Virus record (IMG/VR): IMGVR_UViG_3300027911_000042
Location: 1 to 33,731 of that record
Direction: 5' to 3' (one strand)
DNA from: a virus
DNA length: 33,731 nucleotides
The notes under the pieces: model-generated
The model's input: only the letters and a program-made list of their open reading frames with translations
Databases searched by the model: none
What the model was told of the DNA's origin: nothing
Part shown: in pieces, positions 3,595 to 25,111 of the stretch
Layout: every line of letters starts with the position of its first letter
Position numbering within the stretch: position 1 is the stretch's first letter
Translations under genes and position numbers: made by a program

Positions 3595-4068
3595 ATGAGG
3601 CCGCTTGTTGTGGCGGTTCTCGACACGATGTGGGGAGAGAGGCAAGGCTCTGCTCCCCGCTTCTTCCGTATCAACCCTGAGAACACTTCCGGTCGCCGTC
3701 TCTACCGTCTAGTGGGGGAGGATGTGCGGCTTATCGTTACCAACGTATGCCGGGAGCTAGTAGACCACTCTAATAAGCATGGCAAGCCAGATGCGGGTTG
3801 GCTTTACCAGAACATCCGGCACATTACTGCACCCCGCTTTAACACACAGCTCATTCTAGTCTGCGGCCAGATAGCGCAGAGTGTATTTAACTCCATTCTT
3901 TGCCGCTTTGAGGATGAATGGATACTTCGAACTAACTTACTCTGCTTGCCGCACCCGGCAGCTAGAATCTGGACAGAGAAGACTATTCAGAAGCAGCAGA
4001 AGCGAATCCGCGAGGCACTCGATGGAGAAACCGTACAAGTTCCCGAATCATCCTCCCGCGAAGTCTAG
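3595..4068 (+). CDS. Uracil-DNA-glycosylase-superfamily-like protein, 157 aa
   Basis: Fold assignment is by pattern. There is an early strand VVAVLDTMWG, then the loop RFFRINPENTSGRRLYRL, then LIVTNVCREL, then a Rossmann strand LILVCGQIAQSVF, and a late LPHPAARIW with the His position used in motif B of UDG/Mug-type enzymes. Size (157 aa) suits a minimal UDG-like domain. If active it would process or sense modified bases, which fits a phage with a base-modification operon and a UDG-polymerase fusion. Catalytic residues cannot be confirmed by eye. The ATG follows the previous stop with no gap; SD is GAGGAGAG. Confidence 0.45.
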   Translation: MRPLVVAVLDTMWGERQGSAPRFFRINPENTSGRRLYRLVGEDVRLIVTNVCRELVDHSNKHGKPDAGWLYQNIRHITAPRFNTQLILVCGQIAQSVFNSILCRFEDEWILRTNLLCLPHPAARIWTEKTIQKQQKRIREALDGETVQVPESSSREV

Positions 4069-9308: not shown

Positions 9309-9657
9309 ATGGAAATATGGATTCAGGGAAGGCAGAGGCACTCTCTTTCAACAGCAGCGCCGACACGATGTAGCGAAGATAAAGTTCATGCACGACCTAG
9401 ACGAAGTAATTGAAGGCGCACCTTTCAAGTTTCTAGGCATGTCAATCACTCCGTCCCAACCCGAACCCGAAATGCGCTGTATCGTCTGTGGGATGCCTGG
9501 ACCTCCAAAGACTTCGAAAGAAGCCGATGCGTGGGATTGGTTTACCGGAACACTAAAGGAAACCGTACACTTCTGTCCTCAACACAACCGCAGTTCTGAG
9601 TGGGAGAGGTTATGGAAGCTATCTCGTGACTCCAAAGAAAGCACAGCGAAAGTTTAA
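9283..9657 (+). CDS. Hypothetical protein with C-x2-C/C-x2-H site, 124 aa
   Basis: The frame is open from 9262, but ATG 9283 has SD GGAGGGAAG. The N-terminus is a helix (TREQFWDKWKYGFREG), followed by a loop and a zinc site: CIVCGMPGPP and, 40 residues on, CPQHN. Unknown function. It overlaps the next gene by 32 bases in a different frame. Confidence 0.6.
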   Translation: MTREQFWDKWKYGFREGRGTLFQQQRRHDVAKIKFMHDLDEVIEGAPFKFLGMSITPSQPEPEMRCIVCGMPGPPKTSKEADAWDWFTGTLKETVHFCPQHNRSSEWERLWKLSRDSKESTAKV

Positions 9658-10186
9658 GCGGCTGATTCGCTCTGTCTCCTACATCTACTCGAAACGAAAT
9701 CACTATCGCCTGTCCCAAGAAGATTTGGAGTCCGAGGGGATGCTTGTCCTAGTCCGGTGCTGTAGGGACTTCCCGAAAGGCAAGACCTACTTCACCCGCT
9801 ACTTCAAGCGTTCCCTCTATTCCCATCTCATAGACCTGCATCGCTTTGAAAAGCAGCAAAAGAGGCAAGGCTATATTGTGCCTCTCAATGAAGTCCAGCA
9901 GCAAGTAGCAGAATCGCACCTGTCTCCCTACGCGGACAGAGCTATGGCAATCTTGCCGTTTCTGTCTCCCAAAGCTAGGAAGTTTCTGCAAACTCTAGTC
10001 TTCCCACCGATAGCTCTGTCTGAGTTTGCATGGAAGCAGTACAAGGGTTCGAATCGGAAGCGATTTCGTATCCGGTTCATTGATCTTCGAAGATTCCTCA
10101 ACCTGTCAGCAGCGGACGTTCGGGGACTGGTTGGGGAGATTCGAGGCACGTGGTTGGAATATAAAGCGCAAAAGGAGAAACACTAG
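9626..10186 (+). CDS. Sigma-70 region-2-like protein, 186 aa
   Basis: GTG start. Residues about 28-80 read like sigma region 2: LSQEDLESEGMLVLVRCCRD, then TYFTRYFKRSLYSHLIDLHR, followed by a basic helix. The C-terminal part (SPKARKFLQTLV, LNLSAADVRGLVGEIR) is helical and may act as a degenerate region 4. A phage-encoded ECF-like sigma would redirect host RNA polymerase to phage promoters, such as the two repeat-bearing gaps; that link is inference. SD is weak. Its TAG overlaps the next GTG (TAGTG). Confidence 0.6.
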   Translation: MTPKKAQRKFKRLIRSVSYIYSKRNHYRLSQEDLESEGMLVLVRCCRDFPKGKTYFTRYFKRSLYSHLIDLHRFEKQQKRQGYIVPLNEVQQQVAESHLSPYADRAMAILPFLSPKARKFLQTLVFPPIALSEFAWKQYKGSNRKRFRIRFIDLRRFLNLSAADVRGLVGEIRGTWLEYKAQKEKH

Positions 10187-11512: not shown

Positions 11513-11932
11513 ATGGAACAGGCGAATGTAACAGTCTCTATGGGAAAGTGTTCCGAGTGTGGAATCGAATGGACTCTCACTACGATGGAATACGAGTGGT
11601 GGGACGAACGGGTACAGAGGGGAACTGCTAAGTTTCCCAAGCGGTGCCGGGGATGCCGGGACCGGCGCAAGTCAGACACTTCGGCATGCAGCAGGGAGAT
11701 TCGGGAAATCATAAAAGGCTACTTCGAAACAGAGACCATCGGGCTTGCAGAGTTGAATAGCCGGCTTACTATTCTCGCGGAGAAAGTAGAAGCACTGGAG
11801 GCTAAGTCCTATGCACCGAGACAGAATCGAAGACCTGTTCGCGTTCATGAAAGAGCGATACCAGATATTTCTCAACCGGACAGCGGGGAAGCCGAAGCCA
11901 TGGACACAGGACAGGATACTCCAGAAGCATAA
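11513..11932 (+). CDS. Zinc-finger protein, 139 aa
   Basis: ATG two bases after the previous stop with SD AGGGAGAA. Residues about 13-50 carry CSECGIEW and FPKRCRGCRDRR, a four-Cys zinc ribbon with a basic tail, followed by a coiled-coil-like helix (LAELNSRLTILAEKVEALEA) and a disordered acidic end. The last 122 bases overlap the start of the 11811 gene in another frame, so the disordered tail is dual-coding. Probably nucleic-acid or protein-binding; heads the hypermodification operon. Confidence 0.65.
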   Translation: MEQANVTVSMGKCSECGIEWTLTTMEYEWWDERVQRGTAKFPKRCRGCRDRRKSDTSACSREIREIIKGYFETETIGLAELNSRLTILAEKVEALEAKSYAPRQNRRPVRVHERAIPDISQPDSGEAEAMDTGQDTPEA

Positions 11933-12647
11933 GTTTACGAATTGCTATCGGGAGGATGACCGGGTAACGCGATGGATTGCAAAGAACTGGAGAACTCCGC
12001 ACAAGAATGACCCTGATCTCTGGTTTGCTATGTGCGTTGCCCGGTACATCAACTGGCCTGACACTTTGGAGGAACTAGGCTACCCCGTTCCCTGGGAACC
12101 CGAAGACTTTATCGACTGTCTGCATAATCGAAAAGCGGACGGAAAGCAGGTCTTCACAGGTGCCTACATTGTTCACAGTCTCGGTCCCAAGATTCCCTAT
12201 CTCGCGGACAAGGTGTTTACTCCTCTTTGGAAAGACCGCATGAGTGTGCGTCCCCAGGCGGTGGACTCCTTGGCGAGCTTCTTTGCGCGACTGCGATTAT
12301 ATCAGGGTATGGGCAGCTTTATGGCAGGACAGGTCGTAGCGGACATGAAGTATGTACAGCCACTCGAAGACGCTGATGACTGGTGGGAATGGGCAGCTAT
12401 GGGACCCGGAAGCGCGAGAGGGCTAAATCGGGTAATAGGTAGGCCCATAAAAGAACATTGGTCTCAAGAAAGTTGGCTTGCTGCTGTAAACTGCATTCAA
12501 GACAAGCTGGCACCCAAGCTGGAGAAAGCCAGGATGCCGAGGATGCACGCACAAGACCTTCAGAATTGCCTTTGCGAGTTCGATAAGTATGAGCGAGTGC
12601 GTTTAGGCGAAGGTCGGCCAAGAAGCCTGTATCCGGGGCTACCATGA
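11811..12647 (+). CDS. DNA base hypermodification protein, HMUDK-helical/aGPT-PPlase1-type, 278 aa
   Basis: Strong resemblance from memory to the HMUDK_hel (aGPT-PPlase clade 1) family of phage thymidine hypermodification systems: PWTQDRIL (30-37), FTNCYREDDRVTRWI (42-56), GMGSFMAGQVVAD (166-178), GPGSARGLNRV (198-208) and DLQNCLCEFDKYERV (249-263). The family is glycosylase-like (HhH) in fold and, in other phages, is fused to or next to the 5-hmdU DNA kinase. Here the kinase is a separate gene (16477). ATG with SD GGAGG nine bases upstream; the frame overlaps the previous gene by 122 bases. Expected role: acting on phosphorylated 5-hmdU in DNA. Confidence 0.85.
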   Translation: MHRDRIEDLFAFMKERYQIFLNRTAGKPKPWTQDRILQKHKFTNCYREDDRVTRWIAKNWRTPHKNDPDLWFAMCVARYINWPDTLEELGYPVPWEPEDFIDCLHNRKADGKQVFTGAYIVHSLGPKIPYLADKVFTPLWKDRMSVRPQAVDSLASFFARLRLYQGMGSFMAGQVVADMKYVQPLEDADDWWEWAAMGPGSARGLNRVIGRPIKEHWSQESWLAAVNCIQDKLAPKLEKARMPRMHAQDLQNCLCEFDKYERVRLGEGRPRSLYPGLP

Positions 12648-13393
12648 ATCTAGTTCCTTTTGGGCGGCAACTCCTGGAGACGGGGGACTTAGACCCCATC
12701 TACACAATTCTCTGGAAGGCTGAACTGCATCCTAACCAACTCCGACGATGGCTTCTTGCCTATTGGTGGTTCTATCATGCAGGGGTATCTTCACACCTGT
12801 CCGCATGTAAAGGAAACCAATTCTATCGGGAAGCTGCTCATTTAGCGTCCAAAACAGCAACAAGGCGAGGAACAGAAAGGCGGCACTTCAGAGGACAGAA
12901 GTGTCTAGACTGTATTTCTTGGTTTCAAAGGCACTATCCTGCACCGGAATCAGCAGTACACTCCCTAGAGCGGTCTTGGAAGATTAGTAAGTTGGTGAAA
13001 CACCTAAGCGCGAGTTGGCCGCTGTTCGGTCCCTGGATGGGGTTCAAAGTAGGAGACATGCTAGAAAGACTGGCGTTGGCTCCCGTTGAATTTCCGGCAG
13101 AGAGTTTGAGTATGTATTCCACTCCGGTAAAAGGGGCAAAGCTGGCCTGTAAACTGTATGACTGGGATATGTCCACAGAGGAGGTAGTGACACACCTAAT
13201 CTCAGTATATCACAGGTACAAAGCGCCGCCTAGATACGAGCGCCCAGTAAACGCACAGGAGATAGAGACAATCCTGTGTAAGTGGAAATCCCATAAAGGA
13301 GGACACTACCCTTTAATGAAAGACACTCACGAGATAAAAGAGGGGCTGATTGGATACGGAGCATTGGCTACCGGGCTACGGAGATTCCTGTGA
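12644..13393 (+). CDS. Amino acid:DNA transferase-like protein (aGPT-PPlase clade 2, ADDT), 249 aa
   Basis: Resembles the ADDT family: LDPIYTILWKAEL, RRWLLAYWWFYHAG (34-47), the marker ERRHFRG (78-84), PLFGPWMGFKVGDMLERL and the ending of the pathway enzymes. In characterised thymidine hypermodification this class displaces the pyrophosphate from activated 5-hmdU in DNA with an amino acid. ATGA overlap with the previous gene (12644-12647) and GTGA overlap with the next, so it is translated as a unit with them. Which amino acid it uses cannot be read from sequence. Confidence 0.85.
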   Translation: MNLVPFGRQLLETGDLDPIYTILWKAELHPNQLRRWLLAYWWFYHAGVSSHLSACKGNQFYREAAHLASKTATRRGTERRHFRGQKCLDCISWFQRHYPAPESAVHSLERSWKISKLVKHLSASWPLFGPWMGFKVGDMLERLALAPVEFPAESLSMYSTPVKGAKLACKLYDWDMSTEEVVTHLISVYHRYKAPPRYERPVNAQEIETILCKWKSHKGGHYPLMKDTHEIKEGLIGYGALATGLRRFL

Positions 13394-14184
13394 AATTACG
13401 ACGTACTCCGGTGCAGCTCATAGACGGCATCTATGTGAAACGAGAAGATTTATGCTCTCCGGCAGGATGGCCAAAATTCAGTAAATGCCGAGGCGTGCTT
13501 CAACACATTCGAGAACGGGACGAGGAAACAATTGGTGTCTTAGACACAGCACACTCACAGGCAGGTTGGGTTGTAGCAGCAGTTTGCAAGTTAAGGGGAA
13601 AACGGTGTGTGAACTTCTATCCCCACTTTAAGGCGGAAGCGCGCGGCCATATTAGACCCTTTCAGAAACGTGCGGAAGGATTTGGGGCCAGACTATTTCC
13701 TCTACAGGCGGGGCGATCAGCCATTCTCTATCATCAGGCAAAGAAGGAGCTACTGCGGATAAGCGGGGATAGCTACTTAATGCCCAACGCTTTGAAGCTG
13801 ACAGAATCTGTAGAGGAGACAGCACAGGAAGCTGCACACCTGCCTGGTAGCTATAGGCGTGTAATCATACCAGTCAGCTCAGGCACGATTGCTGCGGGAG
13901 TTCTCTTGGGCCTATCCCGAAAAGGAAAGTTCCCCCGAGTCTATCTCCATCTAGGCTATAGCCGAAGCCACGATGCCGTTATTGAATACGTGCAGGGCTA
14001 CGCCCCAGACTATCCTGTGGAAAAGATCAAGATCATTGATGAAGGATACAAATACAAGGACTCTGCTCGCGGGACGGACAGGCCAAAGTTTCCTTGCAAC
14101 GAGTTCTACGACCTAAAAACTTGGCAGTGGCTTCGACAGCGCAATTGGTCAGGGAAAACACTGTTTTGGAACATAGGTGCTTAA
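13390..14184 (+). CDS. PLP-dependent enzyme of hypermodification operon, 264 aa
   Basis: Fold-type II PLP enzyme (ACC deaminase/tryptophan-synthase-beta group). Visible: VKREDLC (16-22), K32 in FSKCRG as the likely Schiff-base lysine, VLDTAHSQAGW (50-60), MPNALKLTESV (131-141) and the phosphate-binding SSGTIAAG (163-170). In phage thymidine hypermodification a PLP enzyme decarboxylates the amino acid adduct on thymidine; a similar role on this phage's base is inferred. At 264 aa it is shorter than typical members, suggesting a minimal catalytic core. GTG start overlaps the previous TGA. Confidence 0.85.
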   Translation: MKLRRTPVQLIDGIYVKREDLCSPAGWPKFSKCRGVLQHIRERDEETIGVLDTAHSQAGWVVAAVCKLRGKRCVNFYPHFKAEARGHIRPFQKRAEGFGARLFPLQAGRSAILYHQAKKELLRISGDSYLMPNALKLTESVEETAQEAAHLPGSYRRVIIPVSSGTIAAGVLLGLSRKGKFPRVYLHLGYSRSHDAVIEYVQGYAPDYPVEKIKIIDEGYKYKDSARGTDRPKFPCNEFYDLKTWQWLRQRNWSGKTLFWNIGA

Positions 14185-15062
14185 TGTTAGACTGGAAAAG
14201 GGTCACATACGGGGCTGAGTTAGAATTAGCTGACATAGATACTCGCTTAGTGCTTCCCGCAACCGCTGTTTGGGATTACCGCGAGTACAGCATTCGTAAC
14301 TCTAATGGTACCTCGGTTGACCCTAAAAAGAGATTGAATGCATTTGGCAGCGAAGTACACACAGTCCCCTGCCGGTCGGTGTCGAGCCTACTGGGTGCTA
14401 TAGAGGACACCTATAAGCACCTCAAGGTAGGGCATCGCTGCTTTAACCACACTACCAGTTTGCACTTCCATGTTCAGATTCCTGGGCTTAGTGCAGACTT
14501 GAGTGCCCTAAAGAAGCTAATCAGATACATCCGGCAGTGGGATACAGAAATCTATGAGAACATAGACCCAATTCGATTTCCTGAAGACGGCACAGACAGG
14601 CACTTCTTCCTTCAAAGAAAGCGGTGGCATCACTCTAGGGTTTCAGCCCAAGTGTACCAGAAGCTCCTGTCCGCTACGTCTGCAAAGGAGTTTATATCCG
14701 CTCATGCGCCACAACACAGAGGCATACCACAGTGGCATCTAATGCAGAGGGCGGGGATTAACCTTGCACACCTAGCAAAGCCCTCAAACACTGTAGAGTT
14801 CAGATGTTTTACTATGAGCCTAGACCTAGACAGGGTGCGGCAGGCGGCGCTTTGGGTATCAGAATTTATTCCTCGGGCGTTGGATAACGAACGCCCTAGA
14901 TTCCCTAACGACCTTCAGCGGTGCTATCCTCACAACACTAGTCTAGACAGAATCTACTATCTTACGAACATACACAAGCAGGGTAGCCGAGGCAAGGTAC
15001 TCCGTAACTATGAAGCACTGTTCCGCACCAAAAAGCTCACGAGAGCGGAGGTTCTAGGTTGA
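14184..15062 (+). CDS. Amidoligase family protein (Amidoligase_2-like), 292 aa
   Basis: COOH-NH2 ligase of the ATP-grasp-like/glutamine-synthetase-fold amidoligase family by pattern: YGAELE (9-14), SEVHT (56-60), FNHTTSLHFHVQ (87-98), RAGINLAHL (189-197) and TVEFRCF (203-209). Such enzymes join an amine to a carboxylate. Comparative genomics has linked amidoligases to phage base-hypermodification clusters, but I know of no demonstrated DNA product. The frame is open from 14094; ATG 14184 overlaps the previous TAA by one base and the N-terminal motif starts right after it, so I choose that start. Confidence 0.8.
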   Translation: MLDWKRVTYGAELELADIDTRLVLPATAVWDYREYSIRNSNGTSVDPKKRLNAFGSEVHTVPCRSVSSLLGAIEDTYKHLKVGHRCFNHTTSLHFHVQIPGLSADLSALKKLIRYIRQWDTEIYENIDPIRFPEDGTDRHFFLQRKRWHHSRVSAQVYQKLLSATSAKEFISAHAPQHRGIPQWHLMQRAGINLAHLAKPSNTVEFRCFTMSLDLDRVRQAALWVSEFIPRALDNERPRFPNDLQRCYPHNTSLDRIYYLTNIHKQGSRGKVLRNYEALFRTKKLTRAEVLG

Positions 15063-16480
15063 TGCAAGACAACGAAGCGTTAGACCTGTTTGATGAAGAG
15101 GGAAAGTATAAGTGGTTCACACGAACAGAGCCTAGACAGGCAGATGGACCAGTAAAAGTTGATGACAAGACCGGATTCCGGTATCAATATTGGTCTATCG
15201 GAATGGTTCGCAACGCAAAAGAGGAGAACCGCGACCGGGTAAAGGTTTTCCTGGACCCAATCCCGCACATTATAATCCCCAAAGCGAAGCCTCTGCAAGG
15301 CTGGTATAAAGCTAAGTTTGAGCCCAAGGGTGTAAGGCCGCGTCCTTGTATGACCGAAAGTGTCCTAACTGAACCCTACGGGGGCTACTGCGCTGTAGGG
15401 TGCGGCTTCTGTTACATCAACTCTGGTCAGCGCGGCTATCGTGCAACAGGACTAACAACAGTTCCGCAGGACTACGGTGATCAAGTCCGAGAGCAGTTAC
15501 GCAAATGGAGAACGTCTGCCGCAGGGTACATCTGTAGCTTCATTGATCCCTTTCTCCCACTAGAGGGAATTTATCACAATTCGCAGGGCTGCGCTGAGGC
15601 TTTTCATGCAGAGGGACTACCTGTGTACTTCCTGAGTCGGCTGTTGTATCCAGATTGGAGCTATGATCTGCTCCGAAAAAACAAGTACAGCTATGCACAG
15701 ATGTCAATAAACACAAACGACCCAAATGATTGGAGAAAGCTTTCGCCAAAAGCCGCCGCTCTCAAGGAACTGTTCGAGCAGATTCGAGAACTGCATAAGA
15801 ATAAAATCTACATCTCAATTCAGTGCAATCCGATTGTGGCGGGAGTCACAAGTAACGAAGATATTGTCAAGCTAATCTACAAGCTTGCAGACTGTGGGGC
15901 TGATCACGTTATATTTAAATTCGTCGAAGCTGCGTATTCATGGAAAGGTGCTCTCGTAGACAAAATGACGAAGCAGTTTGGTGCGGAGCGCGGAGAGAGT
16001 TTTCGCAAGCTGTTAACGTGCAACATCGGAGGACAGGTTACAATCCAAGAGGAGTATCGGCTAGACGCACTAAACCTGTTCCGCAAGCACTGTAAGAAAG
16101 CCGGAATAACTATGGCTACCTGCTATGAGTACGAGTACGAGCGCGATAAGAAAGGGAACATAGTCAACTCCACAGGAGTCAGTGTAGGACCGAAGTATTT
16201 AACCGCAGATCAGTGTCACGGACACCGTGTTCCTATGTTCACTAGGGAGCATCCAGATTCGAAATTTACGGAAGTGGAAGAGTGTCCGCCTAGTGGATGC
16301 TTACACTGTGGAGATGATAACAACGGCATAGGTTCTTGCGGCTCCCTACTTTTCAGCCAGGCAGGTGCCTTGCGCTCTACGGATTACAGAGTCCCTGTTC
16401 ATCACAGTAAGACTCTCACACAGATACAGAAGTATGCCCCTCGCACAGAGGCAAGTGATTTAGTACAGATCAAACTGTGA
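15062..16480 (+). CDS. Radical SAM enzyme of hypermodification operon, 472 aa
   Basis: Radical SAM cluster CAVGCGFCY with C110, C114 and C117, inside a TEPYGGYC context; the TIM-barrel part follows (SFIDPFLPLEG, FLSRLLYP, MSINTNDPNDW). The C-terminal ECPPSGCLHCGDDN, GSC group may hold an auxiliary iron-sulfur cluster. In the related Pseudomonas phage M6 pathway a radical SAM enzyme isomerises an N-linked glycyl adduct to a C-linked one; an analogous isomerase step is likely here. TTG 15059 and ATG 15062 are adjacent starts; the ATG overlaps the previous stop as TGATG. Confidence 0.88.
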   Translation: MQDNEALDLFDEEGKYKWFTRTEPRQADGPVKVDDKTGFRYQYWSIGMVRNAKEENRDRVKVFLDPIPHIIIPKAKPLQGWYKAKFEPKGVRPRPCMTESVLTEPYGGYCAVGCGFCYINSGQRGYRATGLTTVPQDYGDQVREQLRKWRTSAAGYICSFIDPFLPLEGIYHNSQGCAEAFHAEGLPVYFLSRLLYPDWSYDLLRKNKYSYAQMSINTNDPNDWRKLSPKAAALKELFEQIRELHKNKIYISIQCNPIVAGVTSNEDIVKLIYKLADCGADHVIFKFVEAAYSWKGALVDKMTKQFGAERGESFRKLLTCNIGGQVTIQEEYRLDALNLFRKHCKKAGITMATCYEYEYERDKKGNIVNSTGVSVGPKYLTADQCHGHRVPMFTREHPDSKFTEVEECPPSGCLHCGDDNNGIGSCGSLLFSQAGALRSTDYRVPVHHSKTLTQIQKYAPRTEASDLVQIKL

Positions 16481-17073
16481 TAATCCAAATACGGGGGTGT
16501 AATGGAAGTGGAAAATCAACAATCATCAGAAAACTGCTACGAGCGTATGGAAAGAATCCTCGTTGGGCGAAGATTAACGGCAAGAGAAAGATTGTTGGCT
16601 ATCGCTTATCCCGAATGTCCCAGCGCACCTATGTTATCGGCGCTTACGAGACGCCTACTGGTGGATGTGATGTATTTCCAACTGTCTCTGCGGTTGAGAG
16701 GTGGGTAGAGCACTTCGCTAAAAAGGGAAACGTAGTATTTGAAGGAGCTATGATTTCTACCCTAACGGGAAGATTCGTGGCTCTAGCCCGAAAGATGCAG
16801 AGCCGGAGAGACTGTCACGCGCATAGATTCATATTCGCTGTTTTAGACACTCCACTCCACAAATGTAGACGGCGAATAGAAAAGCGGCAAGCAAAGAGCG
16901 GGAGAAAGAACAGCAAGGGCACTAGACCCTTTGGTACGGACAGAGCTATGCAGCGATATCGCGGCTCTATGATTAGCAGTCCCAAGTCTCTAAAACGGGA
17001 AGGGATGGATGTACGTGTGTTGAATCACAAAAAAGCAGTTCGTCGAATCGTACATTGGTTAGGAGAGGAATGA
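16477..17073 (+). CDS. P-loop kinase, probable 5-hmdU DNA kinase, 198 aa
   Basis: Walker A GCNGSGKST at residues 7-15, followed by FEGAMISTLTGRFVALARK and a C-terminal Arg/Lys-rich lid (HKCRRRIEKRQAKSGRK), ending in RTGTDRAM-type helices. Together with its position between radical SAM and thymidylate-synthase-like genes, this matches 5-hydroxymethyl-deoxyuridine DNA kinases that phosphorylate the base hydroxyl in DNA to activate it. GTG start overlaps the previous TGA. A general nucleotide kinase remains possible from sequence alone. Confidence 0.8.
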   Translation: MIIQIRGCNGSGKSTIIRKLLRAYGKNPRWAKINGKRKIVGYRLSRMSQRTYVIGAYETPTGGCDVFPTVSAVERWVEHFAKKGNVVFEGAMISTLTGRFVALARKMQSRRDCHAHRFIFAVLDTPLHKCRRRIEKRQAKSGRKNSKGTRPFGTDRAMQRYRGSMISSPKSLKREGMDVRVLNHKKAVRRIVHWLGEE

Positions 17074-18125
17074 GAATCCACACAGGACGGGGGCTGGGCG
17101 ATTTCTATTACAGTGTATTCCGCAATATCAAAGCGAACGGCGTGAAGGTAACTCCACGAGGGCAGAAATGCATTGAGCTACCGGAACCAGTTACGTTCGT
17201 CTACACCAAACCCGGAGCTTGCTGGATGCACATTCCCGGCAGGAAGTTCAATCCCTTCTTTGCGCTTGCCGAAGTAGTCTGGATTCTGTCGGGCAGGGGC
17301 GACATAGATTGGATTGCGAAGTACAACGAGAAGATGCGAGACTTCAACGACGGGGGACCGGAGAATCACGGTGCTTACGGACTGCGGATTCGAAAAGCAC
17401 AGACCATTCAGGGGCCGCTAGATCAAATCCAATACGTAGTTAGTAAGCTAAAACAAGACCCCTACTCTAGGCAGGCCGTAATCTCACTTTGGGACCCCTT
17501 TCTCGACAACTGCTTTCTGTCGAAAGACATTCCATGCAACAATCTGATATACTACTCCCTCCGCGAGACGCAAGAGGCTTTCAGTAAGGTTCCTTTTCTC
17601 GACCAAACAGTTGTAATGCGTTCGAACGACCTAGTTTGGGGAACTCCCTACAATGCGGTTCAGTTTACACATCTGCACGCGCTCGTAGCGGGGATGCTCG
17701 GGGCGGAGATGGGCAAGTTTACTTACGTGATTCAGAATCTACACTTCTACGAAGACCTGTACCCAGAGACGCTGGCTGCAATCCAAGAGGCTGCGGCGTA
17801 CATTCACAATCCTACTGCAAAGGAAGTTCCAGGGTTCGGTCCTGTAACTCAGGAAGAGTTTGATTATACAAAGCAGCTTATCTGTTCTCCTGAGCGACCG
17901 GGATACTGGTCCTTTACGATTCCGCACATGCTTTGGATATGGGAGGCTATCCGAAACGGACTAACCTGCAACGGACGCGGCGAGCAGATTGCACAGGAGA
18001 TAATGAAGCTACCTAGCACGCTACAGACACTTGTTTACGGTTTCTACAGGGATTCCAAGAATGAGTTTACACGTGACGTCATCCGCAGATACAAAGCGTT
18101 ATCATCTCCTACTCGCGGAGTATAA
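17070..18125 (+). CDS. Thymidylate-synthase homologue, probable dUMP hydroxymethyltransferase, 351 aa
   Basis: Thymidylate-synthase family: ALAEVVWILSGRGDIDWIAKY, catalytic Cys C156 in the IPCNN loop, RSNDLVWGTPYNAVQFTHLH and QNLHFYEDLY. After the Cys most thymidylate synthases carry His; here Asn follows, as in some hydroxymethylating relatives. In this context it should make 5-hydroxymethyl-dUMP rather than dTMP. The frame opens at 17055 (TTG), but ATG 17070 has SD TAGGAGAGG and overlaps the kinase stop as ATGA, so I choose it. Last gene of the modification block. Confidence 0.87.
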   Translation: MRIHTGRGLGDFYYSVFRNIKANGVKVTPRGQKCIELPEPVTFVYTKPGACWMHIPGRKFNPFFALAEVVWILSGRGDIDWIAKYNEKMRDFNDGGPENHGAYGLRIRKAQTIQGPLDQIQYVVSKLKQDPYSRQAVISLWDPFLDNCFLSKDIPCNNLIYYSLRETQEAFSKVPFLDQTVVMRSNDLVWGTPYNAVQFTHLHALVAGMLGAEMGKFTYVIQNLHFYEDLYPETLAAIQEAAAYIHNPTAKEVPGFGPVTQEEFDYTKQLICSPERPGYWSFTIPHMLWIWEAIRNGLTCNGRGEQIAQEIMKLPSTLQTLVYGFYRDSKNEFTRDVIRRYKALSSPTRGV

Positions 18126-18973: not shown

Positions 18974-19005
18974 TTGAATGAGTTAAATCGCAAAGGGGGA
19001 AATTG

Positions 19006-20826
19006 ATGACTTACGACCAAGCTGTAACAGCAGCATTCCATTTATGGTGGATTCCAGTCCTACTGCCAGTTTTGGTAGGATATAAACTGTTCCTGCGGCT
19101 ATTCGGGGTTGTATTGATTCCGCAGAACAGCATCGGTATCGTGAACAAGCGATACGCGATTCTAGGAAAGAACAGAACCCTCGCGGAGGGGCAAATCGTA
19201 GCATTGAATGGAGAGGCAGGGATTCAGGCAGATACTCTTGCACCAGGACTGCATTTCTTTCTCTGGCCTTGGCAGTACAAGATTAAGCTGCAAGAATTCC
19301 TAATTGTTCCACAGGACAGTATCGGTGTGGTAGAGTCTAGAGCGGGGGCCACCCTTACGGAAGGGAGAGTCCTAGGTAAGCGGGTAGAATGCAAGTCTTT
19401 CCAAGACACTCGGGCATTCCTCGCCGGGGGAGGACAGCGGGGACCACAGATTACAGTAATTCCACCAGGAACCTACCGAATCAACACCGCCGTATTCTCC
19501 GTAGCTTCCGCAAAGGCGGTAGAGATTCCCAACAATGCAATCGGCATCGTAACTGTGAAAGACGGCAAGCCGCTAAACACCGGGGAGATTGCGGGACCGA
19601 TTGTAGCAGACCACAATTCTTTCCAGGATGCCCAGACGTTCATAGACAAGGGCGGCAACAAAGGCTTGCAAGAACAGGTCATGCTTGCAGGCCGCTACTT
19701 TATCAATCCGATGTTTGCAACGGTAGAGATTAAGACGATGACGGCAGTACCGATTGCGAACGTAGGGGTTGTAATCGCGTACGTTGGGGAAGAGGGCAAG
19801 GATGTTACCGGGGATGCGTTCAAGCATGGGAATCTCGTAGCGAAGAACCAGAAAGGTGTCTGGAATGAACCCTTAGACCCTGGTATGTATCCTATCAACC
19901 CCTACACGCACAAAGTCGAGCTAGTGCCTACCGCGAATGTCGTACTTAATTGGGCAGACGCAAAGACGGAAGCGCACATGCTAGACAAAGACCTATCGAC
20001 AATCACAGTCCGGTCGTCCGATGGCTTTAAGTTCAATCTAGATGTTAGTCAGATTATCCACATCCCCCGGAACGATGCGCCGAAAGTCATCGCAAGGTTC
20101 GGCAATATGGTAAATCTAGTCACGCAGGTACTGGAGCCTACTATCGGCAATTACTTCCGCAACGCGGCACAGAACTCCGATGTCATTGACTTCCTAAAGA
20201 ACAGGCAGACTCGCCAAACGGAAGCAAAGACTTCGATTGCCGCTGCGCTTACGGAATACAACGTGAATGCGGTAGACACTCTCATCGGGGATATCACGCC
20301 TCCAGAAGAGCTAATGAAGACTCTCACAGACCGGAAGATTGCCGACCAACAGAAGCTAACCTTCGAAACACAGACTACGGCGCAGACTACCCGCACAGAG
20401 CTTGCCAAGGCAACAGCTATGGCGGATACACAGGCCAGTGTCGTTACCGCAGAGCGGCAGGTAGCAATTCAGGAGTTCGAAGCGGCAGCGACTGTGAAGA
20501 AAGCGGAAGGGGCAAGACAGGCTGCCATTCTCTCCGCAGAAGGCGAAGCAAAGTCTATTCAGCTCAAGGGAGACGCACAGGCAGCAATCACTAAGTCAGT
20601 AGGAACAGCGGAAGCGGATGTAATCAAGTTGAAGATTAACTCGATGGAGTCGGGCAACTACGCTATGATTGAGACGGCTAAGGCGCTCTCAACAAGCGGA
20701 AAGCTTGTTCCCGAGATTATGGCAGGAGGGGGAGGAGGCGGTAACGACTCGGGGAGTCTCGTCAATCTCTTCCTCGCCAAGATGCTCAAGGACAGCAGCA
20801 ACGGAATCGCTAAGGAGAGCAAATAG
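19006..20826 (+). CDS. SPFH/flotillin-like membrane protein, 606 aa
   Basis: ATG with SD AAAGGGGGA; TTG 19003 is adjacent. One N-terminal membrane helix (residues about 14-35, WWIPVLLPVLVGYKLF), then repeated SPFH/band-7 beta units (IPQNSIGIVNK, VPQDSIGVVES, IPNNAIGIVTV), a classical SPFH core around DGFKFNLDVSQIIHI, and a long Ala/Glu/Gln-rich coiled coil (TTAQTTRTELAKATAM, EGARQAAILSAEGEAKSIQL) with a glycine-rich end (GGGGGGN). SPFH proteins oligomerise on membranes and organise protease or lipid microdomains. A phage copy might shield host membrane protease complexes or scaffold replication; this is inference. Confidence 0.87.
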   Translation: MTYDQAVTAAFHLWWIPVLLPVLVGYKLFLRLFGVVLIPQNSIGIVNKRYAILGKNRTLAEGQIVALNGEAGIQADTLAPGLHFFLWPWQYKIKLQEFLIVPQDSIGVVESRAGATLTEGRVLGKRVECKSFQDTRAFLAGGGQRGPQITVIPPGTYRINTAVFSVASAKAVEIPNNAIGIVTVKDGKPLNTGEIAGPIVADHNSFQDAQTFIDKGGNKGLQEQVMLAGRYFINPMFATVEIKTMTAVPIANVGVVIAYVGEEGKDVTGDAFKHGNLVAKNQKGVWNEPLDPGMYPINPYTHKVELVPTANVVLNWADAKTEAHMLDKDLSTITVRSSDGFKFNLDVSQIIHIPRNDAPKVIARFGNMVNLVTQVLEPTIGNYFRNAAQNSDVIDFLKNRQTRQTEAKTSIAAALTEYNVNAVDTLIGDITPPEELMKTLTDRKIADQQKLTFETQTTAQTTRTELAKATAMADTQASVVTAERQVAIQEFEAAATVKKAEGARQAAILSAEGEAKSIQLKGDAQAAITKSVGTAEADVIKLKINSMESGNYAMIETAKALSTSGKLVPEIMAGGGGGGNDSGSLVNLFLAKMLKDSSNGIAKESK

Positions 20827-21119
20827 TGGCTAAACTCGAAGAGCATCCTGTATCCGCAGTTACAAACGAAGGGAAAGATCACCGCTCAATAACGGAGAAA
20901 GTAAAGTTTGTAAATATAGGAAGTAAAACATTCCTTCTATGCGGGACTACACTACTAGACTGTGCTGACATCTCTGTGTTGGAGTTCAGACTAGACGACG
21001 ATGAGACCGTAAACGATGACGCAATAGTCAGGTTTAAAAATGCCTCAGAGACTTGGAATATTCCAGAAGAAGACGCGGTTCTGCTGAAGGAGTATCTGAA
21101 GGAGTATTTAGACAGGTGA
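20826..21119 (+). CDS. Hypothetical acidic protein, 97 aa
   Basis: GTG start overlapping the previous TAG by one base (TAGTG). Beta-rich middle (KVKFVNIGSKTFLLCGTTLL, then VLEFRLDDDETVNDDAIVRF) and a helical end (DAVLLKEYLKEYLDR). No family recognised. Ends in a GTGA overlap with the polymerase fusion, so may be co-translated with it. Confidence 0.65.
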   Translation: MAKLEEHPVSAVTNEGKDHRSITEKVKFVNIGSKTFLLCGTTLLDCADISVLEFRLDDDETVNDDAIVRFKNASETWNIPEEDAVLLKEYLKEYLDR

Positions 21120-23818
21120 CAAAACTCACAGTTCTCCCTAACGGTAGGACCGTAGACAAATACTGCCAGGAATGCGGACTGTGGAAGGAGTGTGCGTCTC
21201 CTCGTATGAATGGGGAGGGAGCCGCGCACCCGAAGTTTCTCTTTGTTATGGAGGCTCCCGGTGAGACGGAAGACAGGCGGGGGATTCCGGCTTGCGGAGA
21301 GGCAGGGCAACTTCTTAGAGAAACCATCGAGCAGGTAGGAATCAACATTCAGGAATGCCGGTTTACCAACGTTGTGCGATGCCGTCCGCCGAACAACGAT
21401 TTAACGAAGTGGAAGAAAGCACCGGAACTGTGCCTAGCTCATCTGCTGCGGGAGATTCGCTCTACCAATCCGAAAGTAGTCGTAGTTATCGGGGCGGTAG
21501 CAATGAAAGCACTGCTAGACAGAACCGGAGTTCTCAAGTTGCACGGAGAAGTATTCCAATATCCACAAAGAACCTTCGTAACGATGTTCCATCCAGCCTA
21601 TCTCTTGCGGAACAACACCCCGGAGAACAGGCAGAAGTTTCGACAGGCAATCGCAACGGTAAAGGCACTAGGCAACCCGAAAGCAATGAAGAGGACGCAA
21701 GATGAAAATAAAGTCGAAATCATCAAGGACAAAAAGCGACTCTACGAGGTCACCGACTACCTTAGAGGAATTAAGCTCAAGGCTACTGATATCGAATCGA
21801 GCACTCTGTCTCCTTATAGCCAAGCTACAAAACCCGAAGTGGGCATTGTCGGATTCGCAGCAGGACCACATATGGCGTTTATCTTTCCGATATATTCAAG
21901 ACTCGGAACGGCTATTAACTTCCATCCGAGACTCGCTCTTGAAGCTGTAGCGGAACTGTGGGAGGACTCTGACTGTGAATATATCCTGCATGGAGGAAAG
22001 CACGACTATACCTACATGGCAGTTCTGCACGGAATCTGGTTGCAGGGATTCCGCAGGCATCCTACCGGGTACAGCTACGACACGCACCACGAATCCTATA
22101 CCCTAAAAGGGGAACCGGGAGGGCATAAGCTAAAAGAATTGGCTTGGAAGCTAGGACTCGGGGGATATGAGTTTGCATTGGAGCAATACAAACGGGAGCA
22201 TCCCGAGGCAAAGTCAAACTACAATCTTATCCCACTTCCCATCCTCGGTCCTTACTGTGGAATGGACTGCATTACGACGTTCCGGTTGCATCACTACTTC
22301 CGCCCCATTCTAGAGAAACGCAATCTGTGGAAGAATCCGTATCTGTTCCCGCAAATGTACCACAACTGGACCGCTGCGATGTTGCAGATTAAGGGAATCA
22401 AGACAGACTTAAAGCGCAACAAAGAACTGTCCATTATCGTTCCCAATCTGCAAAAGAAAGCGGAGCGGGAGCTGGAGCAGTTCGACGAGGTTCAAACGCT
22501 TCTGCAAATGAGGAAAGACAAGGCTCGAAAGAAGATTCGGGAGCGAGTCTACAGCTACAAGCGGAAAGTCTCGAAGCCAAAGCGGTTAATCAAGCAGATG
22601 CTCCGGGACTGGGTAGCGAAGCATCCTATGAAGTGGACACCCGACGAGCGCCGGACTCTTGTTTTCGATGTTCTCCGCTACCCTTCGCTAGCCGAGACAA
22701 AGAAGGGATTGCCAGTAGTCAGCAAGAAGATTCTCAAGAAGCTGCTCCTGCGACATGGGAAGCATACGGTACTAGAGAAGTTGATGGAGCGGGGATTGTA
22801 CTATTACGCGAATACGAAGTATGTCAAGCCAATTCCTAGTTGGGTAGGCAGCGACGGCAGGACACATACCACCTACAATCCAGCAGGGCAGAACACAGGG
22901 CGTGTACCGAGCGAGAATCCAAATCATGAAAACATCCCGAAGCGGGAACCGAAAGTAGCGCCTCTGATTCGCTCCCAGTTCGTTCCGACTAGTGATGACT
23001 ATGTATTCGCGGCGGGAGACGGAAAGCAGATGGAGTTGCGGCTAGTCTGCGACGCTTCCGGTGACGAGACAATGCAGGCGGAGTTTGAAGCGAGAAAAGA
23101 CCCTCACAAGATGGGTGCTTCGGCGTTTTACGAAGTCCCTGAGGCGCAAGTCACAAAGGAGCAGAGAACGGATGCGAAATCCGCTGTATCTTTCGGTCTC
23201 ATCTACGGCAGGTCCACAAAAGCACTTGCGGCAGACTATGGGAAGTCGATAGAGTGGGCGCAGGAGAAGATAAATCGCTATTTTGCTAAATACCGTAGAA
23301 TCCCGGAATGGTGGAAATCCGTAGAGGAGTTTGTCAAGAGGAAAGGCTATGTTCTGTCCACATTCGGCAGACGGAGCTACTGTCCGGGAATACGGAGTAG
23401 CGAGGAGGGTATTTATAAGAAGGCTGTGCGGGATGCAATCAACCATCCTATCCAAGGCACCGGGTCCGACATTACTTGGATAGCAGCGTACCGGATGCAA
23501 CGTTGGCTGATGAAGTACAGGCTGCGGAGCAAAGCAGAGTTCCGGCAGCAACGGTTTGTTTTCTATCGAAACTCACGCCCCGTAGTTGTCATCCACGACG
23601 ATGTAACCGGAGACGTGTACTTGCCAGAGCTAGAGGATTATATCGAGCATCTACAGTTCTACATGACAGACAGGAAGTATATTGAAGAACATACAGGATG
23701 GTGGTGCAAGGTTCCTCTTGACTTAGACATCTCGCTAAGTCGGCATCACCTAGGCGAGTCTGTAGAGTTGGAAAGAAACGGAGACGATTTTATCATCCCC
23801 AAGGAGTTCAAGGTATGA
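21116..23818 (+). CDS. UDG - 3'-5' exonuclease - DNA polymerase A fusion, 900 aa
   Basis: Residues 1-190 are a family-4-type uracil-DNA glycosylase: CQEC pair, E46-A-P-G-E50 motif, CGEAGQLLRE, later Cys (VVRCRPP, ELC) that would complete an iron-sulfur cluster, and HPAYLL with H159. Next a DnaQ-like exonuclease: D225-x-E227 (TDIESS), then HGGKHDYTYM and YCGMDC. The polymerase A core follows: motif A with D635 (DGKQMELRL), motif B with K688 and Y697 (DAKSAVSFGLIYG), and motif C H827-D-D829 (VIHDDV). UDG fused to polymerase A is known in some hmU-containing phages. The GTG at 21116 overlaps the prior stop; the upstream open frame from 21053 overlaps another gene. Confidence 0.93.
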   Translation: MTKLTVLPNGRTVDKYCQECGLWKECASPRMNGEGAAHPKFLFVMEAPGETEDRRGIPACGEAGQLLRETIEQVGINIQECRFTNVVRCRPPNNDLTKWKKAPELCLAHLLREIRSTNPKVVVVIGAVAMKALLDRTGVLKLHGEVFQYPQRTFVTMFHPAYLLRNNTPENRQKFRQAIATVKALGNPKAMKRTQDENKVEIIKDKKRLYEVTDYLRGIKLKATDIESSTLSPYSQATKPEVGIVGFAAGPHMAFIFPIYSRLGTAINFHPRLALEAVAELWEDSDCEYILHGGKHDYTYMAVLHGIWLQGFRRHPTGYSYDTHHESYTLKGEPGGHKLKELAWKLGLGGYEFALEQYKREHPEAKSNYNLIPLPILGPYCGMDCITTFRLHHYFRPILEKRNLWKNPYLFPQMYHNWTAAMLQIKGIKTDLKRNKELSIIVPNLQKKAERELEQFDEVQTLLQMRKDKARKKIRERVYSYKRKVSKPKRLIKQMLRDWVAKHPMKWTPDERRTLVFDVLRYPSLAETKKGLPVVSKKILKKLLLRHGKHTVLEKLMERGLYYYANTKYVKPIPSWVGSDGRTHTTYNPAGQNTGRVPSENPNHENIPKREPKVAPLIRSQFVPTSDDYVFAAGDGKQMELRLVCDASGDETMQAEFEARKDPHKMGASAFYEVPEAQVTKEQRTDAKSAVSFGLIYGRSTKALAADYGKSIEWAQEKINRYFAKYRRIPEWWKSVEEFVKRKGYVLSTFGRRSYCPGIRSSEEGIYKKAVRDAINHPIQGTGSDITWIAAYRMQRWLMKYRLRSKAEFRQQRFVFYRNSRPVVVIHDDVTGDVYLPELEDYIEHLQFYMTDRKYIEEHTGWWCKVPLDLDISLSRHHLGESVELERNGDDFIIPKEFKV

Positions 23819-24324: not shown

Positions 24325-24738
24325 TTGATTAAGAAGCTGCCGGTAGTCGTTCACCTTTCGGATTCAGACGTAAAAGAACTCGACTTGATGAAGGAATTGC
24401 GCGTCGATAAATTCAATCTAGACAGGCAGCTCATGCAGTACGCGCAACGCTACGGCTACTGGGCAGAGTTGTATGCTTCTGCTTCTGCCAAAGTCTCGAA
24501 ACTCCGGGAGGATTTGGAGAGCCTAGAGGCAGAACTATTTGGCAGGTCCGGGGGAAACGTAACAGACAAGCGATTCTGGATTAAGCGGCATCCCCGGTAC
24601 AGGGCTGTTAGGAAACGACTTCGCAAGTGGGAGGATGCGGAGAGATTCCTGAAGTTTGCAGAAAAAGCTTTCGATAAGAAACTTAGTGTCTTAATGTGCC
24701 TAAACGCAAACGAGCGCAAGGAGAAAGAGCGTGCCTAG
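24325..24738 (+). CDS. UvsY-like recombination-mediator candidate, 137 aa
   Basis: TTG start immediately after the previous TAG, SD GAGGAGGAA. Entirely helical: FNLDRQLMQYAQRYGYWAEL, SAKVSKLREDLESLEAEL, then DKRFWIKRHPRYRAVRKRLR and a last helix FAEKAFDKKLSVLMCL. The length (137 aa), the layout and the position between polymerase and single-strand-binding/recombinase genes resemble the T4 UvsY mediator that loads UvsX onto ssDNA. Sequence identity cannot be judged by eye; a general coiled-coil protein is the alternative. Confidence 0.45.
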   Translation: MIKKLPVVVHLSDSDVKELDLMKELRVDKFNLDRQLMQYAQRYGYWAELYASASAKVSKLREDLESLEAELFGRSGGNVTDKRFWIKRHPRYRAVRKRLRKWEDAERFLKFAEKAFDKKLSVLMCLNANERKEKERA

Positions 24739-25111
24739 CTCGCACAACCCTAAGGACTGCCCTCACGTTGAGGGAGGGGAACTAACCATCTACTTTGTTC
24801 GAAACGCAAATCGGAATATCCTGTACTGTTACCTATGTGATGCAACCTTCGTTCGACAGGATGGCTGGCCCGAAGGACAAATCAAAGGAGAGAGCATGAT
24901 TAGCAAAGAAGAACTAGAGAACTGGTTTATGTATCATCAGCCGAAAGCAGAAGATGTGGATGCTTACATGAAGATTCGGGAAGCTGGGAAGAATCTTGCC
25001 AATGTAATTGTCGAGAACACCCCTGCTTCCGCAGATCAATCCGCAGCAATCCGGTTAGTACGGGAAGCAATCATGACCGCAAACGCGGCACGCGCATGTA
25101 GGGGGAAATAA
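24731..25111 (+). CDS. Zinc-ribbon/Acb2-like composite, 126 aa, probable internal start at 24896
   Basis: GTG 24731 starts a frame whose first 55 residues hold CPH and CYLC (a zinc ribbon). Residues 56-126 begin MISKEELENWFMYHQPKAED and continue YMKIREAGKNLANVIVENTP and REAIMTANAARAC; this resembles phage Acb2 (T4 Vs.4-type) proteins that sequester cyclic nucleotides and block CBASS immunity. The ATG at 24896 has its own excellent SD (AAAGGAGAG, in-frame as KGES), giving a 71-aa product of normal Acb2 size. So one frame may yield both a fusion and a stand-alone protein. Assignment rests on motif memory. Confidence 0.6.
   Translation: MPSSHNPKDCPHVEGGELTIYFVRNANRNILYCYLCDATFVRQDGWPEGQIKGESMISKEELENWFMYHQPKAEDVDAYMKIREAGKNLANVIVENTPASADQSAAIRLVREAIMTANAARACRGK

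Follow-up and report, generated by a model that had tools for sequence, protein, structure and literature searches.

An M6-type thymidine hypermodification operon in a viral contig includes an amidoligase that may cap the modified base

The DNA analyzed here is a 33,731-base virus record from IMG/VR (IMGVR_UViG_3300027911_000042), hereafter the window, which is probably a fragment. Seven plus-strand genes occupy positions 11811-18125, all of them open reading frames (ORFs) at the coordinates that an earlier sequence-only reading of this DNA had assigned to a complete thymidine hypermodification operon (Table 1). That reading had described seven adjacent genes overlapping by 1-4 bases, and the junctions, read from the sequence, overlap by 4 (12644-12647), 4 (13390-13393), 1 (14184), 1 (15062), 4 (16477-16480), and 4 bases (17070-17073). 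These values follow from shifting three starts of the ORF list downstream, to the ATG at 14184 for the amidoligase, at 15062 for the radical S-adenosylmethionine (SAM) enzyme, and at 17070 for the thymidylate synthase (TS) homologue. The seven-gene set is not due to chance.

Table 1. Genes of the operon and the gene before it, with the evidence for each product. PF numbers, PALP, TS, and HMUDK_HMUD1 denote Pfam matches; identities to M6 proteins are from tblastn. GS, glutamine synthetase; GCS, glutamate-cysteine ligase; PLP, pyridoxal phosphate; 5-hmdU, 5-hydroxymethyl-deoxyuridine.
Product	Position	Strand	Evidence
Small zf_Tbcl zinc-finger-like protein, possible accessory	11513..11932	+	PF13451 6.5e-7
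HMUDK_hel / aGPT-Pplase1 protein	11811..12647	+	PF18723 2.6e-49; M6 gp55 39%
ADDT / aGPT-Pplase2, amino acid:DNA transferase, probably glycine	12644..13393	+	PF18724 1.1e-13; PDB 8z2m "Glycinyltransferase" 3e-49; M6 gp51 37%
Fold-type-II PLP enzyme, probable decarboxylase of C-linked amino acid	13390..14184	+	PALP 2.6e-11; phrog_7093 5e-72; M6 gp52 51%
Amidoligase (GS/GCS-fold ATP-dependent carboxylate-amine ligase), proposed amine capping	14184..15062	+	Family profile, predicted fold, invariant residues
Radical SAM enzyme, probable N-to-C isomerase of glycyl adduct	15062..16480	+	phrog_9252 2e-163; M6 gp53 53%
P-loop 5-hmdU DNA kinase	16477..17073	+	GCNGSGKST; HMUDK_HMUD1 5e-4; phrog_800 1.4e-16; M6 gp54 29%
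TS homologue, probable dUMP 5-hydroxymethylase	17070..18125	+	TS 2e-25; M6 gp58 34%

Profile hidden Markov models (HMMs) placed the proteins encoded at 11811 and 12644 inside the HMUDK_hel and ADDT families, as had been claimed, and the PLP, radical SAM, and TS identities were likewise recovered. A comparison of the HMUDK_hel and ADDT profiles with each other gave a match too marginal to propose shared ancestry. The ADDT protein was only 28.5% identical to that of phi W-14, and its comparisons point to glycine as the most likely donor. In the PLP enzyme, the SKxRG lysine motif and the SSGT loop were invariant. The radical SAM CxxxCxxC cysteines singled out before (C110/C114/C117) were invariant among five phages; six further cysteines toward the C terminus (C354, C385, C408, C413, C416, C426) were also conserved in five phages and possibly bind an auxiliary Fe-S cluster. 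Although the HMUDK_HMUD1 match of the kinase falls under the Pfam cut-off, its proposed identity is backed by the P-loop, the homology to M6, and the match to phrog_800, a PHROG labelled "terminase small subunit". The best solved PDB relatives of the TS homologue were CMP 5-hydroxymethylases; it carries N195 where these have Asp, a difference that suits uracil as the substrate. Both N195 and the catalytic C156 were invariant. Searched by sequence against the PDB, the HMUDK_hel protein gave chance matches only, and the products of the kinase, amidoligase, radical SAM, and PLP genes gave none.

The M6-like cassette comprises a hydroxymethylase, Nmad5, aGPT-Pplase1, a kinase, a radical SAM enzyme, a PLP enzyme, and aGPT-Pplase2 (PMC9476957), and M6 DNA contains 5-(2-aminoethyl)-dU (5-NedU; PMC6449724). 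Six of these seven components are also present in the window operon, at 29-53% identity. Nmad5 was sought in the window with an HMM of the M6 gp56, Pam3_51, Bhz59, and Simon proteins and was not found; it occurred in just 30 of the loci searched and so is not universal. The description of the operon as complete thus held for the six shared components and not for Nmad5. The amidoligase gave no tblastn match in M6, Pam3, or Bhz59. The M6/YuA type therefore has Nmad5 and no amidoligase, whereas the window has the reverse, with another gene order and in a different phage lineage, one with a DNA polymerase that joins a uracil-DNA glycosylase (UDG) domain to PolA. The amidoligase, which the earlier reading had listed but not singled out, is the part that distinguishes the window operon. 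Because of the six M6 counterparts and the glycinyltransferase match of the ADDT protein, the core product is most likely 5-NedU made from glycine, as in M6.

Against Amidoligase_2 (PF12224), the window amidoligase scored 0.0028 and 16.7-18 bits, below the Pfam cut-off of 22. However, 17 of the 27 aligned members of its family matched Amidoligase_2, no other family was matched, and the relative at locus L065 exceeded the cut-off (24.3 bits). The AlphaFold2 model (pLDDT 93.7, pTM 0.90) had YbdK, glutamate-cysteine ligase (GshA), and glutamine synthetase as its best solved Foldseek matches, with modest TM-scores of 0.36-0.48. G10, E12, E14, D17, D46, E57, H96, R189, N193, T203, E205, and R207 were invariant in the 27 sequences. 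The earlier identification as an amidoligase is borne out by the family matches and the predicted fold. Ligases of the GS/GCS fold use ATP to activate a carboxylate, usually that of glutamate, which is then joined to an amine. The window protein has the fold and the conserved acidic, His, and Arg residues in common with the Amidoligase_2, YbdK, GshA, and glutamine synthetase ligases, but it differs from them in its weak sequence similarity and in its proposed acceptor, an amine on DNA. Its modeled structure has the glutamine synthetase/glutamate-cysteine ligase fold, and its predicted activity is ATP-dependent amide formation.

An IMG/VR scan with the window amidoligase sequence alone found nothing, and a scan of viral contigs with the amidoligase alignment gave 29 loci, whose neighbours were not selected for. 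These were pooled with those that the radical SAM and ADDT scans gave, the window included, and annotated with per-gene profiles. ADDT was present in 34 of 35 distinct amidoligase loci, the exception being a 6.3-kb contig; by comparison, 92 of 50,697 phage records had an ADDT match. The amidoligase accompanied radical SAM and PLP enzymes in 8 contigs (window included) and a flavin enzyme in 20, and its tree requires at least three changes between these contexts. It occurred in only 6 of the 80 loci of the radical SAM scan, which makes it a minority variant. No match to the phage amidoligase subfamily turned up among the genomes of 84,980 bacterial and archaeal species, which were scanned with one pattern only. 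A Vibrio jumbo phage relative of the amidoligase (L007, 8854-9975) adjoins queuosine-type 7-deazaguanine genes and has no ADDT in its neighbourhood.

The position of the gene is shared with acetyltransferases. PaMx11 carries, in this order, genes for ADDT, a flavin enzyme, an acetyltransferase, the kinase, hel, and TS; many amidoligase loci have the same arrangement with the amidoligase in third place instead. Within the radical SAM group, "addt palp" is followed by GNAT at the end of L067 and by the amidoligase in L040, L055, and L035. Slot X in "addt fad X kin hel ts" and in "hel kin rsam addt palp X" held either an amidoligase or a GNAT, never both; the GNAT assignment was confirmed. Among 40 loci with flavin enzyme and ADDT, 19 had the amidoligase, 9 had GNAT, and none had both (Fisher 0.0014, uncorrected for shared ancestry); among the 26 flavin loci of the ADDT scan, unselected for either gene, the counts were 7, 9, and 0 (Fisher 0.058). 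GNAT (PF00583) was sought in the window and none was found. The PaMx11-type cassette has its front end in common with the window and, as is proposed for the window, ends in a primary amine followed by an acylating enzyme; it differs in having a flavin lyase in place of the radical SAM and PLP enzymes and GNAT in place of the amidoligase.

Of 34 amidoligase loci, 26 have a low-molecular-weight (LMW) phosphatase (LMWPc, PF01451) next to the amidoligase, compared with 0 of 122 other hypermodification loci. Examples were seen in L005 (7679-8170), L006 (9872-10393), L009 (10899-11384), L013 (10882-11448), and L065 (10525-12639). The phosphatase of L065 is fused to the amidoligase, both Pfam families being over the cut-off in a single protein. 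The catalytic CxGNxxRS and DP motifs were retained in most aligned members.

We consider it probable that these genes form a post-replicative M6-type thymidine hypermodification operon extended by an amidoligase that caps the amine. The TS homologue would produce 5-hydroxymethyl-dUMP, to be incorporated into DNA, where the kinase and the HMUDK_hel protein would (pyro)phosphorylate 5-hmdU. The ADDT protein would then let an amino acid, most likely glycine, displace the phosphate; the radical SAM enzyme would shift the bond from N to C, and decarboxylation by the PLP enzyme would leave a primary amine, 5-NedU. Finally, the amidoligase would couple this amine with a free amino acid through the carboxylate of the latter and give an amide-capped thymidine; for an enzyme of the GS/GCS fold, glutamate is the likeliest donor. 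The steps from the TS homologue to the PLP enzyme are drawn from homology to M6 and, for the radical SAM and PLP enzymes, also from annotations. For this core, the sequence comparisons make the pathway highly probable. The amidoligase step is drawn from the fold, the gene context, and the slot shared with acetyltransferases: both core routes leave the base with a primary amine and without the carboxylate of the amino acid, so acylation of that amine is the simplest role for an enzyme in the acetyltransferase slot. That the amidoligase caps the base amine through an amide is slightly favored, its donor and direction being proposals. We regard as evenly balanced the scheme in which the amine of 5-aminoethyl or 5-aminomethyl thymidine is capped with a free amino acid, which may be glutamate, through a dedicated GS-fold amidoligase, often with an LMW phosphatase partner. 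The bulky modified thymidine proposed before is supported as regards modification, but an M6-type core alone gives a small aminoethyl group, and the bulk hinges on the amidoligase.

Several observations weigh against amine capping. An LMW phosphatase was sought in the window and none was found, though most relatives have one, and six amidoligase loci have neither amine-making module. Co-occurrence with such a module says little on its own, since most ADDT loci have one regardless; the mutual exclusion of amidoligase and GNAT reaches only p = 0.058 in the unselected set, uncorrected for phylogeny, and is a rough guide. In two distant loci (L013, 9290-9970; L015, 7885-8529), GATase_6 glutaminases lie near an amidoligase without radical SAM, PLP, or flavin modules. 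These would fit the use of ammonia as the amine and a DNA-borne carboxylate as the acceptor, and they could point to another role of the enzyme. They also favor a reading in which the amidoligase acts on the carboxylate of the amino acid attached to DNA; amidation there by ammonia or a free amine, ahead of decarboxylation or in its place, would yield a carboxamide base. CmoY, an unrelated AsnB-like ligase of Synechococcus phage S-B43, offers a parallel, forming a glycine amide on carboxymethylcytosine in phage DNA (PMC12783734). Yet the operons of the window and of 27 other loci also encode an enzyme that removes this carboxylate, and in neither the window nor its closer relatives did a glutaminase motif appear next to the amidoligase, so we hold the carboxamide product to be rather unlikely.

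The operon could instead be of the plain M6 type, with 5-NedU as its product and an amidoligase that is unrelated to the base or dispensable, serving for example in peptide or peptidoglycan modification. In M6, where no amidoligase is encoded, the core genes are enough to make 5-NedU, and amidoligases do occur in other phage modules, such as a putative peptidoglycan module (PMC11945000). This is difficult to reconcile with a subfamily that follows ADDT loci so closely and with a gene that sits within the operon by 1-base overlaps, in a slot common with pathway GNATs; we judge it quite unlikely. Equally improbable is a donor other than glycine for the ADDT protein of this branch, which would make the core product something other than 5-NedU. 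Its identity to M6 gp51 is only 37%, and the sequence does not reveal the donor here, but the radical SAM and PLP enzymes are nearer to M6 than the ADDT protein is, and its best solved relative is a glycinyltransferase.

The proposed capping of the amine by the amidoligase can be set beside two further phage systems. Phage Simon (PQ683277), a sewage isolate, carries ADDT, kinase, hel, and TS genes, and its amidoligase is 30% identical to that of the window; unlike the window, the phage follows the flavin lyase route (its flavin enzyme matches PDB 8z2o, "Flavin-dependent lyase", at 7e-62) and has an LMW phosphatase after the amidoligase. CmoY resembles the proposed reaction in making an ATP-dependent amide bond on a phage DNA base, but it is asparagine-synthetase-like and AMP-forming and uses a cytosine carboxylate as substrate.

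Outside the operon, the closest relative of the window was L005 (IMGVR_UViG_3300050821_003702, 62 kb), which has counterparts of the seven operon genes and of further ones, among them those for FtsK-like, PolA, and RecA-like proteins, with identities of 30-54%. The zf_Tbcl gene overlaps the first operon gene and has a homologue directly before hel in L005 and in no other locus searched; its membership of the operon is uncertain. At 21053-23818, the window encodes a DNA polymerase with an N-terminal UDG-superfamily domain, an exonuclease, and PolA, as in SPO1-like phages, in which the UDG motifs MEAPGETED and HPAYLL seem retained. Its best full-length matches were in phages of Bacillus that belong to the SPO1 and SP8 group. 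As SP8 DNA contains 5-hmdU (PMC6449724), this likeness fits a genome with modified uracil. A second UDG-superfamily-like protein (3595-4068; 4.8e-5) was just under the Pfam cut-off. An SPFH/Band 7 protein of 607 amino acids (19003-20826) lies between the operon and the polymerase. The protein at 24731-25111 has an Acb2/Tad1 hairpin domain (1.1e-8, over the cut-off) and is possibly an anti-CBASS or anti-Thoeris sponge. Weak similarity to sigma-70 region 2 (0.0042) was found at 9626-10186, in a protein 46% conserved in L005.

The M6-type core route is known, and the amidoligase extension is the new part. Our literature search found no paper linking an amidoligase to thymidine hypermodification; it did not cover the main pathway papers, so a prior description is possible. 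The likely benefit is that the phage DNA resists host restriction; protection of the window phage from host nucleases would follow by analogy with the DNA of M6, ViI, and phi W-14 (PMC6449724). The base chemistry of a phage determines which host nucleases fail. If the proposed capping is true, an amidoligase acting on a DNA base would be a new reaction class in a hypermodification pathway, with a specific new nucleoside predicted, and an aminoacyl-amido base would be one not seen before in DNA. The analysis proposes a function for this phage amidoligase subfamily and highlights the LMW phosphatases that travel with it.

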